DNA from: a virus
IMG/VR virus record: IMGVR_UViG_3300037296_000177
Coordinates: 1-39,628 of that record
Strand: one strand, 5' to 3'
DNA length: 39,628 bases
The notes beneath the pieces were generated by a model that saw nothing but the letters and a program-made list of their open reading frames with translations, did not search any database and was not told the DNA's origin. Of the stretch, positions 4,162-39,628 are shown one piece after another. Each line of letters begins with the position of its first letter. The first letter of the stretch is position 1. Position numbers and translations under genes: made by a program.

Positions 4162-4178
4162 AAGTTTCAGTGAAACTT
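4162..4178. promoter_or_regulatory. Secondary parS-like palindrome
   Basis: AAGTTTCA-G-TGAAACTT is a perfect 8+1+8 palindrome sharing the GTTTCA/TGAAAC half-sites of the main element at 4204-4251, with its centre about 72 bases away. A related half-site lies at the same distance from the other main element, near 7825. It is a likely ParB binding site. Confidence 0.7.
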
Positions 4179-4203: not shown

Positions 4204-4251
4204 AAAAACCCTTATAAATCAAATACTTATAAGGTTTCACCAGTGAAACTC
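4204..4251 (-). promoter_or_regulatory. parS-like centromere element, copy A
   Basis: Core GTTTCAC-CA-GTGAAAC (4234-4249) sits just past the parB stop, followed on the - strand by a TATAA...TTGAT.TATAAGGGTTT block. Read on the - strand, the whole element matches copy B at 7751-7796 at most positions. The half-sites resemble the GTTTCAC/GTGAAAC arms of classical parS sites, but with two extra bases at the centre. ParB binding is inferred from this and from the location beside parB. Confidence 0.78.
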
Positions 4252-5222
4252 TATTTAACACCTAGGTTTTTAAGCGTTTCTTTAAACGATTTAAACAGCT
4301 CAGCGGCGGTTAAATCTTCGGTATCTAAACTCATCGTTATTTTAGACCCCTTTTCTTTCTTGGCCGCGATGGCTAATTTATCCCCGATTAAAGCTTGGTA
4401 TTCGTTTGCCGCTTTAGGCGCTTCGGCCTTGGTATTATTAACCGATTTAATCAAGTCGTTAATGACTGCAGCTGCCGCCATTTTTTTGCCAGCGGCTTTA
4501 AGGTTGTATGCTCTTTTTTCGACAGTGGCTTTCGTAGATGACGACTTTAATAACGATCCCAATTTTGCCGCGCTAGTGACCGGCATCGAAAGCGGGTCGC
4601 TGATTAATGCCATTACCGCCACATTATGCAAAACAAACTCAGCCGCCAAATATTTAGAAACGTGAGATTTTGGCTTGCCTCGGCGGGCGGCCAATTCTGA
4701 CGCTGTGCTAAATAGTTCCGCTTCTAATGCTGCAGCGTAAGATTTTGCCCGCTCCATTTCGCTAATATCTTCGCGGTCGTCATTCTCGCTGTCCATTTCA
4801 AGCCATGCGTCGACATCGCTCATATCCTCACCACGGGCCAAAACTTTATACCCGAGTACAGAGCAAGCATAAGTGCGGCGACGGCCTTTAATGATTTCGT
4901 ACAAAAAGCCGTCGGGGTCATTTTCTAGCTTTCTGACCTTGATGGGATCTTTTTGGCCGATCGCTCTAATCGATTCGATAATGTCGGCGCAATCATTTTC
5001 GTTTAATTTTGTTTGATCACGGTCATGCAATCGCCAAGGGCGGATCACTGCCGGGTCGATTTCAAGATCAAGGCGTTGGTGATGTATTACTTTTTGATCT
5101 TCTTTACGGGTTAATGAATCCAGCACCGGCAGTACCGGCTTTTTAGTAACTGGCTTTTCATCGCTTGCCTTATCGTCTAAAAATAAACTAGCCATATTTA
5201 CCGTGTTTCTTTTCTTACTCAT
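4251..5222 (-). CDS. parB: ParB, centromere-binding partition protein
   Basis: ParB binds parS and loads ParA so that plasmid copies are moved apart. The 323-residue product has an N-terminal arm for ParA contact (1-45). Next comes the ParB/sulfiredoxin-like domain, with GQKDPIKVRK (89-98) and the arginine patch IIKGRRRTYACSVLG (110-124), which is the CTP/DNA-clamp region of the family. The acidic segment SENDDREDISEMERAKSY (145-162) follows, then an HTH (ELAARRGKPKSHVSKYLAAE, about 176-195) and a C-terminal dimerisation region. The gene overlaps the end of parA by 8 bases, so the two are translationally coupled. A parS-like site begins right after its stop. The length fits plasmid ParBs of type Ia systems. 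Confidence 0.93.
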   Translation of the reverse strand: MSKKRNTVNMASLFLDDKASDEKPVTKKPVLPVLDSLTRKEDQKVIHHQRLDLEIDPAVIRPWRLHDRDQTKLNENDCADIIESIRAIGQKDPIKVRKLENDPDGFLYEIIKGRRRTYACSVLGYKVLARGEDMSDVDAWLEMDSENDDREDISEMERAKSYAAALEAELFSTASELAARRGKPKSHVSKYLAAEFVLHNVAVMALISDPLSMPVTSAAKLGSLLKSSSTKATVEKRAYNLKAAGKKMAAAAVINDLIKSVNNTKAEAPKAANEYQALIGDKLAIAAKKEKGSKITMSLDTEDLTAAELFKSFKETLKNLGVK

Positions 5223-6444
5223 TTTCTAGCCCCAATTTCTTTTTCTGTTCATCCATTTTTAAATTCAATCGCTCGCGGCGGTCTTGCATGCTCGGCCATT
5301 GGTTTAAAATTTCCTGTTCAATCATTCCGCAAGCATACTCAACAGCGGCCAACGGTTTAGCCTTTGGTCGGCGATCTTCCAAAATAGTGCCGAAAGTCAT
5401 TGCCGCATTAGCGATCTCTGAAAGCATAGGTACCTCGGCGGCTAATACGCCATCGCCAAACGCGGCGCGCATATACCCTAAAAAGGTTTTATCGGCCTTA
5501 TGGTTTTTTTGAACCTTGGTCGCTAAGATTTTCATAAAAGAATATTGCTTATCAGGCGCGATTCCTTCTAGAACACTTTCAATTAAGCGGAAAAACTGCA
5601 GCGTAGAACTAAAGTCGTAAAGCTGCGGCGGGGTTGGCACAACAAACGAATCGGCGGCGCATAAAATATTCATAGAGATCATGCCCAGCGCAGGCGGGCT
5701 ATCAATAATCACAACGTCGTAATTATTTTTAATAGAATCTAGGCCACGGCGCAAAGTAAAAAAGGCGTTTAATTTCTCCTCTCTCGACTTCATTTGCCCA
5801 ATCTTGGCGCCCATTTCTAATTCCAAATTATAAATTTGTAGGTTAGCGGGTATTAGATCCAGGTTAGGCCAATAGGTTTTTTTAATCGCATAATCGATAC
5901 TGCCCTGCTCGCCCCGAAAATAAGGCAAAAGTGTTTCGTCCTCATCGATGTGCAAATCAGGAATATAGCCGAAAGTAGTTGTCCCACTTCCTTGGCTGTC
6001 TAAGTCAGCCAGGCAGACGCGATAGCCTTGTGACGCGATGTATTGCGCCAATAAAACCGCTGTAACGGTTTTACCTACCCCACCTTTAAAAGACTGCACC
6101 GCGATAATTTGCGGCTGCTCGCCTAATGCTCGTTTCGGTAATGTGTTGCATACCGCGCGAAAGGCGTTTAATTGGTCTAAGCGATAACCGCTTACCTGGC
6201 CCCCGTCGCTGATTTGGCCGTCGATAAAATCAGGTACTAAGCCTTTTTCTATAAGCCCTTTTATTTTATTGGCGATCGTCGAGTGATGCTGGCCAACATC
6301 GGCCGCGACTTCTTTTCGACTCCATAAACGTTCCAGCACCTTTTTATCGTTCGGCTTTCGGCTTTCAGCTTCTACCGCCTCCAAAACTCGCTCGCCTCTT
6401 GCGAGTGCCTTTCTAACTAAATCTAATCCAATATTGCCTTGCAT
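5215..6444 (-). CDS. parA: ParA, partition ATPase (type Ia)
   Basis: ParA is a Walker-type ATPase that binds DNA non-specifically and moves ParB-parS complexes; type Ia members also repress their own promoter. The 409-residue product carries an N-terminal HTH (SRKEVAADVGQHHSTIANKI, about 42-61), as in P1 and F plasmids. The deviant Walker A is KGGVGKT at 120-126, A' is CLADLDSQGSGT (about 144-155) and Walker B is VVIIDSPPALG (244-254). The start has AAGGA seven bases upstream. It is the first gene of the - strand operon, and its promoter must lie in 6445-6570. The N-terminal HTH predicts autoregulation there. Confidence 0.95.
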   Translation of the reverse strand: MQGNIGLDLVRKALARGERVLEAVEAESRKPNDKKVLERLWSRKEVAADVGQHHSTIANKIKGLIEKGLVPDFIDGQISDGGQVSGYRLDQLNAFRAVCNTLPKRALGEQPQIIAVQSFKGGVGKTVTAVLLAQYIASQGYRVCLADLDSQGSGTTTFGYIPDLHIDEDETLLPYFRGEQGSIDYAIKKTYWPNLDLIPANLQIYNLELEMGAKIGQMKSREEKLNAFFTLRRGLDSIKNNYDVVIIDSPPALGMISMNILCAADSFVVPTPPQLYDFSSTLQFFRLIESVLEGIAPDKQYSFMKILATKVQKNHKADKTFLGYMRAAFGDGVLAAEVPMLSEIANAAMTFGTILEDRRPKAKPLAAVEYACGMIEQEILNQWPSMQDRRERLNLKMDEQKKKLGLENE

Positions 6445-6535
6445 GGGTAAATCCTTAGTGACTTCAATTTTTCATTAATGCTATAGAATTGAATCGGGCA
6501 GCACAACAGATATTTTCAATAAATATAAAAAAGTG

Positions 6536-6563
6536 TTGCTTTTCGGTGTTTTGCGTGTAAATA
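6536..6563 (+). promoter_or_regulatory. Candidate sigma70 promoter for the structured RNA
   Basis: TTGCTT (6536-6541) and TAAATA (6558-6563) are spaced by 16 bases, with TG directly before the -10. It points + strand, away from parA and into the hairpin-rich region. This is a by-eye match only. Confidence 0.45.
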
Positions 6564-6569
6564 TGCACA

Positions 6570-7418
6570 CTTAGGCAAGAAAGGCATAAACTTTCTAAGG
6601 CCTAGAGTTAGACAAAAATCGTTATATTTTGATTGATTTGGAGCAAGAAAAAACACAAAAAAGAAATAATGCCGAAAGGCCAGGGCCGTTTTTTTACACC
6701 TACAATGTCAAAAAACCTAAGACCCAGAAAGACAAAAGCCCACCGAAGCTGAAAAGCTAGGGCAGGCATTTTGCAGAGAACAGAGATTAAAAGATAACCG
6801 CTGCGACTCACACAATCACAGTATAACCGCTTTTAATTCCTGCGCCAGCAATCCGCCACTTTATACGCTGAAACTATCGTTTAGATAACGTTAGAGGCTC
6901 GCTTTTGCGTGTCTGTAAAACACTCTAAATCATCGGCGGGGGTCGCTTCATGCCCTGCAAAAAGTAAAACCGCCAAATGTAGCCGCTCTTTGCTTGTACG
7001 TCCGTGGTTTCGATCGTAAGAAACCTGTCTCGCTGGGCTTAGAGTGTGACCCCCCGATCAGAGGACCCAGGGGGGCGCGTGGAAGGATTACAGGAACTTT
7101 ACGACATGCAGGCAAAGGGGCGTTGATCAGGCTAGACCCCAAGCCGCTATTATTTAGGCCACGCCTCAAGCATGGGCTAAATAATAGCGACTAAACCACC
7201 CAAGCCAGTAAAGCTTTAGTGTTCGTATACCGAGGCCCTGTAATCGCGTTAGGCGCGGGGAAACCGTTATCGGTTGCATAGCTAACCAGCTGTATGCCTA
7301 GTTCATAACAGCCCTTAAGTTCATCATTTTGCATTCTTGCAACTTGGCGTCTTTAGGGAAGAACTAACAGCCCGAGGCGAGGCCGAGACACTGCGGGGCG
7401 GTTGGGACTCTTTTCTTT
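6570..7418 (+). ncRNA. Candidate large structured non-coding RNA
   Basis: Nested, mostly perfect stems run through this span. GCC-GAAA-GGC is at 6671-6680. GCCC/GGGC (6738-6741 with 6760-6763) encloses AGCT-GAAA-AGCT (6747-6758), and TTAGAG/CTCTAA is at 6891-6896 and 6923-6928. GGCGG/CCGCC is at 6935-6939 and 6970-6974, and GGTTTC/GAAACC at 7006-7011 and 7020-7025. A 6-bp C/G stem is at 7050-7075, and a 13-bp stem at 7145-7157 with 7177-7189. AACCG-TTAT-CGGTT is at 7262-7275, GCATAGCT/AGCTGTATGC at 7276-7297, and a long helix with an inner TTGCA hairpin at 7312-7358. GAAA caps favour the + strand. Size and phage context resemble giant phage RNAs such as GOLLD, but I cannot confirm membership. 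Confidence 0.55.
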
Positions 7419-7661
7419 ATTAGTGCCCGCTATTCATTAATCAATTAAACCTATATTAAGCATATTGATTTAATTGCCATTATTATTAAATATTGTTTTT
7501 AGATCGGTGCGTCGCCCTTGGGTGTTTTTTGTATCTTATTACGTTATGCTTACTCGGCATCCTGCTAAGGTGTTTAAGTATGGCTTGGGGGCATTTAGAC
7601 CTTTGCTAGACTGATTGATATAAAATATTGTCGAGATATATTTATCATGTTTTATGGGTAT

Positions 7662-7698
7662 ATAGTCATTGGCTTTCGGCGAATGACTATTACTTTTT
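7662..7698 (+). terminator. Terminator before the late operon
   Basis: A 9-bp perfect stem (ATAGTCATT 7662-7670, AATGACTAT 7682-7690) with a short inner extension is followed by TACTTTTT. It would end any + strand transcript from the hairpin region and insulate the terminase operon. Confidence 0.75.
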
Positions 7699-7750
7699 CA
7701 TCCTCTGAATTATTCTAAGTTAAAGCCTTTTTACTATAAAACTAACCAAA

Positions 7751-7796
7751 AGTTTCACTGGTGAAACTCTATAAACCCTTGATCTATAAGGGTTTA
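7751..7796 (+). promoter_or_regulatory. parS-like centromere element, copy B
   Basis: AGTTTCAC-TG-GTGAAACT (7751-7768) is an 8+2+8 palindrome followed by CTATAAACCCTTGATCTATA and AGGGTTT. Bases 7773-7780 and 7788-7795 also form an 8-bp inverted repeat. It matches copy A (4204-4251) in inverted orientation. It lies 110 bases upstream of the terminase gene, where ParB binding could affect late transcription. Confidence 0.78.
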
Positions 7797-7822
7797 AAGC
7801 CAACCCCTAAGAATATTTATCC

Positions 7823-7840
7823 AAAGTTTCACCGCTGGCC
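7823..7840. promoter_or_regulatory. Partial parS-like half-site
   Basis: AAAGTTTCACCGCTGG keeps one clear GTTTCAC half-site. Its centre is about 72 bases from copy B, the same spacing as the pair at 4162-4178 and copy A. The second half is degenerate, so this is weaker than the other three sites. Confidence 0.5.
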
Positions 7841-7856
7841 CCTCAAATCCCCTCGC

Positions 7857-7875
7857 GCCTAACTTAATGTTAGGC
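7857..7875 (+). promoter_or_regulatory. Hairpin covering the terminase start region
   Basis: GCCTAAC (7857-7863) and GTTAGGC (7869-7875) form a perfect 7-bp stem with a TTAAT loop that ends one base before the ATG at 7877. It would hide the only weak AGG ribosome-binding site, so it may limit terminase translation. Confidence 0.55.
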
Positions 7876-7876
7876 C

Positions 7877-8809
7877 ATGACAAAAACCGCCGCCCAAAAT
7901 TCTAATTTATCCTTTTATTGCCTCATGCCATGTGGGCAAAGATTTAAGGCCGAACCCGAAACCGAAATTGAAAGTCGTGGTGAAAGGGTGCCCGCTGCAC
8001 CGTGTCCAAAGTGCAAAAACATGGCGGCTCAGGTCGGTTGGGAGCGTAACCTTGCCAAAGCAGCAGGTAAGCAAACAGGGCCAAAAACCGACGCCGGCAA
8101 AGCCAAAACGGCGGCCAATCTTGAAGGCTACCCCACCGAAGAACAGAAAAAAAACACCCGTTTAAATGCCCTAAAACACGGCGCCTTTGCGAAGACGGCA
8201 AAGTATTTCCCCGCGCGCCCTGGGCAATATGACCGCTGCGACTCGTGCACAGTCGATTGGAACGACTGCAGCGCCAACGAGGTTTGCATTAGCCGAACCG
8301 AAGTTTTTATGCGCCACCAAATCGCGCAAGAAACCGATAACCCGTCTTTATTGCGATCGCTGCAGGCCGACAACCAAGCCAACATACAAATCGTATTAGA
8401 AGATTTATTTATGAACATCGCGTCTAACGGTGCCATGTTTAAAAACCCGAAAACGATTACCGATTTTAAAAATAGCGAAACCCATATCGCAAAATATGTA
8501 GACCCTGAAACGGGCGACTACAAAACAATCTTCGAACACACCGCTAACCCCGCGGTAAAACTCGCCATCGAATTAATGAACAAAAACGGCATGACCTTGG
8601 CCGATTTAGGCATGACCCCAAGATCCCAAGGCGAAGTGCAACAACTAAAAGGCAACTTAAGCGGCGACAGCAAAGGCGCATTAGACGCCGCGAAAGAAAT
8701 GCGCGCCAGTATGGGCGATTTAAAAGAGCTGCTAAGCCGTGGTAAACGCGACAAGGCCAATGACCCCGTATTAATCGAATATAACGCCGAACAAGGCAGC
8801 TCAGAATGA
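7877..8809 (+). CDS. terS: Terminase small subunit (putative), two Cys clusters
   Basis: The gene lies directly upstream of the large terminase and overlaps it by ATGA, so it is most likely the DNA-recognition subunit of the packaging motor. The 310-residue product is longer than typical small terminases. Residues 15-46 form a zinc-ribbon-like set (Cys15, Cys19, Cys43, Cys46 with CPKC). A basic, Gly/Lys-rich stretch follows (61-103, ending in NTRLNALKHG), then a second cluster at Cys121, Cys124, Cys131 and Cys137. The C-terminal half is helical and charged. This is the first gene of the late operon. Its role rests mainly on position; a zinc-binding DNA-recognition role is inference. Confidence 0.7.
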   Translation: MTKTAAQNSNLSFYCLMPCGQRFKAEPETEIESRGERVPAAPCPKCKNMAAQVGWERNLAKAAGKQTGPKTDAGKAKTAANLEGYPTEEQKKNTRLNALKHGAFAKTAKYFPARPGQYDRCDSCTVDWNDCSANEVCISRTEVFMRHQIAQETDNPSLLRSLQADNQANIQIVLEDLFMNIASNGAMFKNPKTITDFKNSETHIAKYVDPETGDYKTIFEHTANPAVKLAIELMNKNGMTLADLGMTPRSQGEVQQLKGNLSGDSKGALDAAKEMRASMGDLKELLSRGKRDKANDPVLIEYNAEQGSSE

Positions 8810-31692: not shown

Positions 31693-31923
31693 ATGGCTGA
31701 TAATGCGCAAAATAACCCAAAGGCAGGTAAAAAGTCTGCTACTCGGTCTTATCGACCAACCCACCGCACCGCAAAACTTATTGCGGATTTTGAAAAAGCC
31801 GAGCGCCGAGAAGGGGGGCAGGCGGAGGAATACTTGGTCGAACTCGGTTTAGCGGTCTGGTTAGCCAATGATCATTTTAAGTATAGATTACCCGACGCTA
31901 GCAGCGCCGAGAACGTGAATTAA
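31693..31923 (+). CDS. Small basic early regulator (possible Cro-like or RHH protein)
   Basis: ATG 31693 has AAGGA seven bases upstream; the frame is open back to 31654 but without a ribosome-binding site. The 76-residue product is basic at the N-terminus (PKAGKKSATRSYRPTHRTAK) and then has two helices (LIADFEKAERREGGQAEEYL VELGLAVWLA), which would suit a ribbon-helix-helix fold. It is the first gene divergent from the CI-like repressor, the classic cro place. DNA binding is inference; no definite family match is claimed. Confidence 0.65.
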   Translation: MADNAQNNPKAGKKSATRSYRPTHRTAKLIADFEKAERREGGQAEEYLVELGLAVWLANDHFKYRLPDASSAENVN

Positions 31924-31939
31924 GACAGGATTGTCACAC

Positions 31940-32497
31940 ATGCTTACTAACACCACTCCAAGACAAGACGATCCCGAATACCGCGGGATCTTTGGCCGAT
32001 TAGATCGCACCCTAGCGACTAATGAGCCTAGGGCGAATTACGGATTAACTCGCCCTGGCTCAATCTTAAATATTGCCGCCGGCGTTGTGCGCAATAGCAA
32101 CTTCGGCATTAAAGCGATGGCGATTGCCACCGGCAAAAAATCAAACGTTTTAAATAACGAATTATCCGGTTGCGATCGTCACAAACTGGGGCTGATTGAC
32201 GCTATTAATCATTCAATGATCGCTGGCGATTATTCCGTGGTAATGGAATGGGCGCGATTAGGTGGGCTAAGCGTTGTGCATTTGCCGCCGGTGGGATTGG
32301 TTGATGATATTGAACTGATGACATGTTATGCGCAATTCATGAAAGAAGTGGGCGACGTAGCCGAACAGTTAAATGAAACTCTCGCCGATCGCAAAGTCAC
32401 GGCGAGTGAAGCCGAAAAAGTAAATAAAGAAGCGCGGGAAGTTATTCAAAGCCTGTATTGCTTCCTTACCCGTTTAGAAGCATTGATAGAAGAATAA
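31940..32497 (+). CDS. CII-like regulator (Phage_CP76 type)
   Basis: ATG 31940 has AGGA nine bases upstream, giving 185 residues; an in-frame TTG at 31931 lies too close to that site. The central part (MAIATGKKSNVLNNELSGCD RHKLGLIDAINHSMIAGDYS) fits the Phage_CP76/CII pattern of P2 and 186-like phages: an HTH that pairs GK..NVLNNELSG with HKL.L.D. It is followed by VVMEWARLGGLSVVHLPPVG. Such proteins activate repressor establishment or other lysogeny promoters. The C-terminal 70 residues are helical and charged, for oligomerisation. It follows the first early gene by 16 bases. Confidence 0.78.
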   Translation: MLTNTTPRQDDPEYRGIFGRLDRTLATNEPRANYGLTRPGSILNIAAGVVRNSNFGIKAMAIATGKKSNVLNNELSGCDRHKLGLIDAINHSMIAGDYSVVMEWARLGGLSVVHLPPVGLVDDIELMTCYAQFMKEVGDVAEQLNETLADRKVTASEAEKVNKEAREVIQSLYCFLTRLEALIEE

Positions 32498-39388: not shown

Positions 39389-39579
39389 AAAGAGCCAGCG
39401 CCGACGAATTACGACAAGGGCTTAAAAGCGCCCAGGTATTTGCTAAGGCAGGGGTCGATTTTGTTTGCATACCAATCATTAGCCAGGCTAATAAAATCGA
39501 CCTTAGAAATCAGGCAGAGACAGCAATAGAAAAGCTCATAGAGCTAGCCGAAGCGGTAGAAGAAAATGAAAATAAATGA
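39385..39579 (+). CDS. DUF1382-like small early protein (64 aa)
   Basis: The complete 64-residue gene (MKRASADELRQGLKSAQVFA KAGVDFVCIPI...) resembles the DUF1382 family found in early regions of lambdoid phages: a Ser-x-x-ELR helix, then KAG.xFV.IPV, then a charged C-terminal helix (EKLIELAEAVEENENK). The molecular role of the family is unknown to me. It overlaps the previous gene by four bases. Its 3' part recurs at 1-78 because of the contig overlap. Confidence 0.78.
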   Translation: MKRASADELRQGLKSAQVFAKAGVDFVCIPIISQANKIDLRNQAETAIEKLIELAEAVEENENK

Positions 39580-39628
39580 GTTCGTTTTTATAAGTGCCCG
39601 CCAGTGTGGTAAGAACTACTCGAGAGCA
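39502..39628. repeat. Terminal direct repeat, right copy
   Basis: This is identical to 1-127. Bases 39566-39628 also repeat the first 63 bases of the gene at 65-313. One copy should be removed to obtain the circular sequence. Confidence 0.95.

Follow-up and report, generated by a model that had tools for sequence, protein, structure and literature searches.

What, if anything, is specified by the long interval between the partition gene parA and the late operon of this phage genome? An earlier note read positions 6570-7418 as a giant structured RNA, possibly related to the large GOLLD and ROOL RNAs of phages. We favour, at a probability of roughly 0.4, a more modest reading, in which the gap encodes a long untranslated RNA comparable to that from the orf-less space of phage ICP1. 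A DNA control segment, the relic of a gene and an RNA from the minus strand all ranked below it, in that order.

A long gene-free gap in a phage-plasmid

The window, i.e. the whole stretch of 39,628 nt that was analysed (IMG/VR record IMGVR_UViG_3300037296_000177), begins and ends with the same 127 bases (1-127 and 39502-39628) and is therefore probably a complete circular genome of ∼39.5 kb. Its ParA has an AAA_31 domain and shares 32-35% identity with the ParA proteins of N15, PY54 and phiKO2, while the nearest ParA relative belongs to Legionella plasmids (47% identity). The other genes include those for a ParB-like protein, a CHC2-type primase, tyrosine recombinases, a CII-like activator and terminase, as well as structural genes. 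The best description of the genome is a ParAB phage-plasmid, and it resembles N15 and other ParAB phage-plasmids in its related ParA, its ParB-like match and its CHC2-type primase. In the Legionella plasmids, in contrast, a replication gene lies ∼435 bp from parA, without a comparably long gap.

The gap between parA and terS (Table 1) is the longest gene-free stretch that we found around the partition and terminase region, which counts in favour of an RNA. The claim that no credible gene lies here held for the entire interval from 6445 to 7876, which contains only short open reading frames and has a coding score at shuffle level. The lone frame of at least 15 amino acids with a Shine-Dalgarno-like site encodes 36 amino acids from a GTG start. 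A frameshift-tolerant codon-usage path score, run on both strands, was 9.1 (plus) and 8.5 (minus) for the gap, compared with 7.6 and 7.3 (±2) for shuffled sequence. In pieces taken from the two flanking genes, it reached 64 (terS) and 54 (parA). As neither strand shows a coding signal, the gap is neither a gene nor a recently decayed gene.

Table 1. Features of the parA-terS region (positions in the window)
Feature	Position	Strand	Remarks
parA	5215-6444	minus	left flank of the gap
Gene-free gap	6445-7876		1,432 bp, between divergent parA and terS
sigma70-like promoter candidate, TTGAAT-16-TATTTT	6489-6516	plus	start near 6523; consensus match only
Hairpin followed by TTTTGTCT	6738-6767	minus	-15.0 kcal/mol; encloses the GAAA-capped 6747-6758
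Inverted repeat, 13-nt arms, 36 nt between	6781-6842		85% complementary; weaker stem
23-nt inverted repeat, 5-nt spacer	7142-7192		87% complementary; single copy in the genome
Weak hairpin followed by TTTTCTTT	7379-7418	plus	-8.2 kcal/mol; end proposed in the earlier note
sigma70-like match, TTGATA-16-TATATT	7615-7642	plus	top score of the whole plus strand; possible late promoter
Terminator-like hairpin followed by TTTTTCAT (TTTTTC)	7658-7693	plus	upstream of terS
parS-like palindrome, GTTTCAC-TG-GTGAAAC	7752-7767		within the 45-bp element 7751-7795
terS	7877-8809	plus	right flank of the gap; start of the late operon

Stems and folding energy

The stems named in the earlier note are present, but their number, given as at least ten in 6570-7418, is no higher than in shuffled sequence. 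Perfect stems of at least 5 bp numbered 14 (12.9 ± 2.1 in shuffles), those of at least 6 bp numbered 8 (5.8 ± 1.8), those of at least 7 bp numbered 3 (1.8 ± 1.4) and those of at least 8 bp numbered 2 (0.5); 7 of 44 same-size pieces from the rest of the window had as many stems of at least 6 bp. Both GAAA-capped hairpins lie where they had been placed (GCC-GAAA-GGC at 6671-6680 and AGCT-GAAA-AGCT at 6747-6758), and the 13-bp stem at 7145-7189 is perfect and belongs to the 23-nt inverted repeat. This repeat (7142-7192), the hairpin at 6738-6767 and the weaker stem at 6781-6842 are the elements that stand out.

At full length (861 nt, 20 shuffles), the folding energy gave z-scores of -4.4 on the plus strand and -2.6 on the minus strand, and a repeat run with 6570-7418 on the plus strand gave -2.9. 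A 600-nt piece (6820-7419) scored -1.7 and -1.6, inside the range of coding pieces. In windows of 150 nt, the mean z was -1.44 (plus) and -1.33 (minus), whereas the rest of the genome averages about -0.35. Among 850-nt runs of the genome, the region ranks in the lowest 4% by its plus-strand mean and in the lowest 3% by its minus-strand mean. The folding signal is raised, not unique, and the fold as a whole is moderately unusual. Two stretches, 6770-7140 (z -1.25 plus, +0.65 minus) and 7195-7425 (-0.29 plus, +0.07 minus), were at background. As the tested stretches outside 7142-7192 and 6738-6767 were shuffle-like, the signal comes mainly from a few local elements.

Controls were scored in the same terms. 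In 150-nt windows, Escherichia coli rnpB had a mean z of -1.25, 16S rRNA -1.08, the 16S antisense strand -0.48 and the ICP1 orf-less gap -0.82. At full length, z was -3.6 for ICP1 and -2.8 for 16S rRNA, of which the first 861 nt were used. Real large RNAs thus score no better than the gap, so that fold energy neither proves nor excludes an RNA. The lowest z among the pieces tested, -10.6 on the plus strand with 8 shuffles, was that of 31701-32300, a 600-nt piece of mostly coding DNA.

Transcription signals and a putative long RNA

A promoter had been proposed at 6536-6563; this pair was missed by a consensus scan and fell outside the top matrix candidates, and the match at 6489-6516 scores better, with four plus-strand matches genome-wide above it in the matrix. 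Two of the five top-ranked plus-strand matches fall within the gap, which we counted for an RNA. Matches of this kind are weak evidence, and they are overrepresented in AT-rich gaps. At the right-hand side, the T-rich end proposed at 7409-7418 is preceded by a weak hairpin at 7379-7410. The terminator reported at 7662-7698 corresponds to a strong hairpin, located at 7658-7693 (-14.8 kcal/mol, z -3.0), which is the third strongest plus-strand terminator-like site outside genes. The sole protein gene upstream of it, parA, points the opposite way, and this also counts for an RNA. Around the gap there are a fair promoter match (6489-6516) and a good terminator-like hairpin (7658-7693), both of them consensus matches only.

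A second arrangement of signals lies closer to terS, where the promoter match at 7615-7642 is followed 15 nt later by the hairpin at 7658-7693 and then by terS. The layout of 7615-7693 is similar to that of a lambda-type late promoter and terminator under antitermination; in a PHROGs scan of ten proteins, none was recognisable as Q-like.

Under the reading that we favour, RNA polymerase would start near 6523 from the candidate promoter at 6489-6516, divergently from parA, and produce a rightward transcript of ∼0.9-1.2 kb. This transcript would end either near 7418, behind the weak hairpin, or at the terminator-like hairpin at 7658-7693, ahead of terS and the late operon. We infer the transcription, its direction and a role for the RNA itself as the product. 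By analogy with ICP1 and with prophages that bear GOLLD, it may act at the RNA level as an abundant transcript of the lytic phase, and a compact, ornate fold would be a further, unproven step.

The orf-less ncRNA of ICP1 is the closest known parallel. The most abundant transcript of that phage is an RNA of ∼800 nt from an orf-less space of ∼1 kb between gp139 and gp140 (PMC7567579), and lncRNAs are also present in phage K (PMC9241854). The interval 6445-7876 is likewise a gene-free phage space in the range of 1 kb, with similar folding statistics, and it shares with the ICP1 gap the lack of an Rfam match above the gathering score and of a tRNA neighbour. The two differ in that the ICP1 ncRNA was seen by RNA-seq and its phage is virulent.

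Counting against a plus-strand RNA are the chance number of stems, the shuffle-like remainder, the minus-strand features and the weakness of promoter matches. What is left of the giant structured RNA is a possible long noncoding RNA, in keeping with the absence of genes, the fair promoter candidate, the good terminator-like hairpin and RNA-like folding z-scores; the ornate structure fared less well, with stems at chance level, a signal residing in two or three elements, an ambiguous strand and no homologues.

Alternative readings of the gap

Second in rank, and a tentative possibility, is that the gap serves the phage-plasmid as a DNA control segment and contains no RNA gene. It would then be composed of parS-like sites, a possible late promoter with its hairpin, possibly a packaging site, and spacer, with the 23-nt repeat as a site for a protein or a recombinase. 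A 45-bp element occurs in inverted copies at 4206-4250 and 7751-7795, which bracket parAB and the gap. The shared element contains GTTTCAC-NN-GTGAAAC palindromes (4234-4249 and 7752-7767), and related half-sites lie near 4165 and 7826. The two copies probably act as centromeres for ParABS partition. Consistent with a control segment, the genome encodes a ParB match and tyrosine recombinases, the fold signal is confined to a few local elements, and terS lies directly downstream, the usual place of cos and pac sites, which in tailed phages usually adjoin this gene. However, the elements concerned are mostly in 7600-7876, leaving 6570-7418 unaccounted for, and the gap showed neither iterons nor a consensus match to a DnaA box or to IHF.

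Less probable again is a relic, in which a minus-strand cargo gene or insertion has decayed and left the terminator at 6738-6767 and debris. This would explain a strong minus-strand terminator-like site without a minus-strand gene before it, and two minus-strand stretches (6884-7057 and 7194-7352) look protein-like by eye. However, neither stretch had a match in PHROGs or in tblastn against phages, Pfam (one stretch) and tblastn against plasmids (one stretch) also gave none, and the frameshift-tolerant coding score is that of shuffled sequence. A decayed minus-strand helix-turn-helix gene, an idea that arose by eye, was unsupported by Pfam, PHROGs, tblastn and the same coding score.

An RNA read from the minus strand is improbable as an account of the gap, although part of the gap at least may be read in that direction. 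It could be a small RNA of ∼80 nt running from a promoter near 6848-6820 to 6738-6767, or a longer RNA that comes from beyond 7400 and ends there. No terminator-like site on the minus strand of the genome is stronger than that at 6738-6767, and 6848-6820 is the second-best minus-strand promoter match in the gap. The three strongest stems of the gap are all more stable on the minus strand, among them the hairpin at 6738-6767 (6725-6775 minus: -20.6 kcal/mol, z -4.8) and the repeat at 7142-7192 (-31.7 kcal/mol minus, -25.5 plus), in which two of the three imperfect pairs are A-C on the plus strand and G-U on the minus strand. Once composition is corrected for, however, the difference between strands is small or reversed, as in the full-length z-scores given above and, similarly, in tests of 600 and 700 nt. 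The strand of the putative RNA is ambiguous: the composition-corrected full-length z and the promoter/terminator pair favour plus, whereas the local features, namely the terminator-like site at 6738-6767 and the G-U pairs in 7142-7192, favour minus.

Known RNA families and relatives

GOLLD and ROOL RNAs often lie near phage tRNA genes and have a covarying multi-stem fold with pseudoknots. Many members of GOLLD exceed 800 nt and are located in phages or prophages, and ROOL is a large phage ncRNA whose function is not known (PMC12286853). The gap is like GOLLD (RF02032) in length class and phage/prophage location and like ROOL as a putative large phage ncRNA; it differs from GOLLD in having no Rfam match and no tRNA neighbour, and from ROOL in having no Rfam match and no tRNA island. 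A cmscan of 6445-7876 against all 4227 families of Rfam 15 found nothing at E ≤ 10, a result that for GOLLD and ROOL stands without a positive control, as neither was found in the control genomes. At gathering scores, the whole window had no match, and none of the families suggested for checking (GOLLD, ROOL, HEARO, OLE, RNase P and tmRNA) was matched. ARAGORN detected neither a tRNA nor a tmRNA anywhere in the window. Despite a similar length and a phage genome, membership of GOLLD, ROOL or another described large RNA family is therefore very improbable, with no Rfam family at E ≤ 10 and no tRNA in the window.

Searches for relatives returned only short DNA matches to the gap and no homologue in phages, plasmids, IMG/VR or 369 gammaproteobacterial genomes. 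Across 24 whole IMG/VR phage records, there were again only short DNA matches, and no ParA match. No IMG/VR relatives were found by ParA or TerS and none by primase, and a ParA search of GTDB genome contigs gave none. The TerL search yielded 40 IMG/VR loci and 6 genome loci, and a TerS search one further genome. These terminase relatives share 41-62% identity. Upstream of terS, none of their loci carries DNA related to the gap; other gaps, 300-750 nt long, occur in some of them. One locus (L031) has a transposase instead of parA at the corresponding place. Since no homologue was found, neither conservation nor covariation speaks for the RNA reading.

Three 16-mer scans of IMG/VR gave a single hit, in which 33 nt of a contig (L088, 603-635) match 6735-6766 of the window at 88%; the match is noncoding and adjoins an integrase gene. 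The combined motif was in no other IMG/VR contig and in 0 of 398 genomes of the phylum, the rest of the contig was unmatched, and we treat the match as chance or a lead. Short matches in two gammaproteobacterial genomes (L054 and L055) were chance-like and inside protein-coding DNA. Upstream of terS in the closest terminase relative (L049), two tandem units that have diverged from each other lie at 1137-1370. Each opens with a hairpin (ACCGAC..GTCGGT in one, ACCAAC..GTTGGT in the other), behind which comes a T-rich run; ARAGORN found no tRNA in these units.

Implications for large phage RNAs

It is also conceivable, though we consider it quite unlikely, that the gap stands for a new class of large RNAs of phage-plasmids, of which it would be the first member known, with no sequence relationship to GOLLD or ROOL and a place between the partition and late operons. 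Single-sequence folding cannot settle such cases, as 16S rRNA and the ICP1 RNA score no better than the gap. GOLLD, ROOL and the ICP1 RNA are abundant, and their function is not known. If the long untranslated RNA is real, it would add an example from a temperate phage-plasmid that has no sequence relationship to the others, and large phage ncRNAs would then seem to arise repeatedly.
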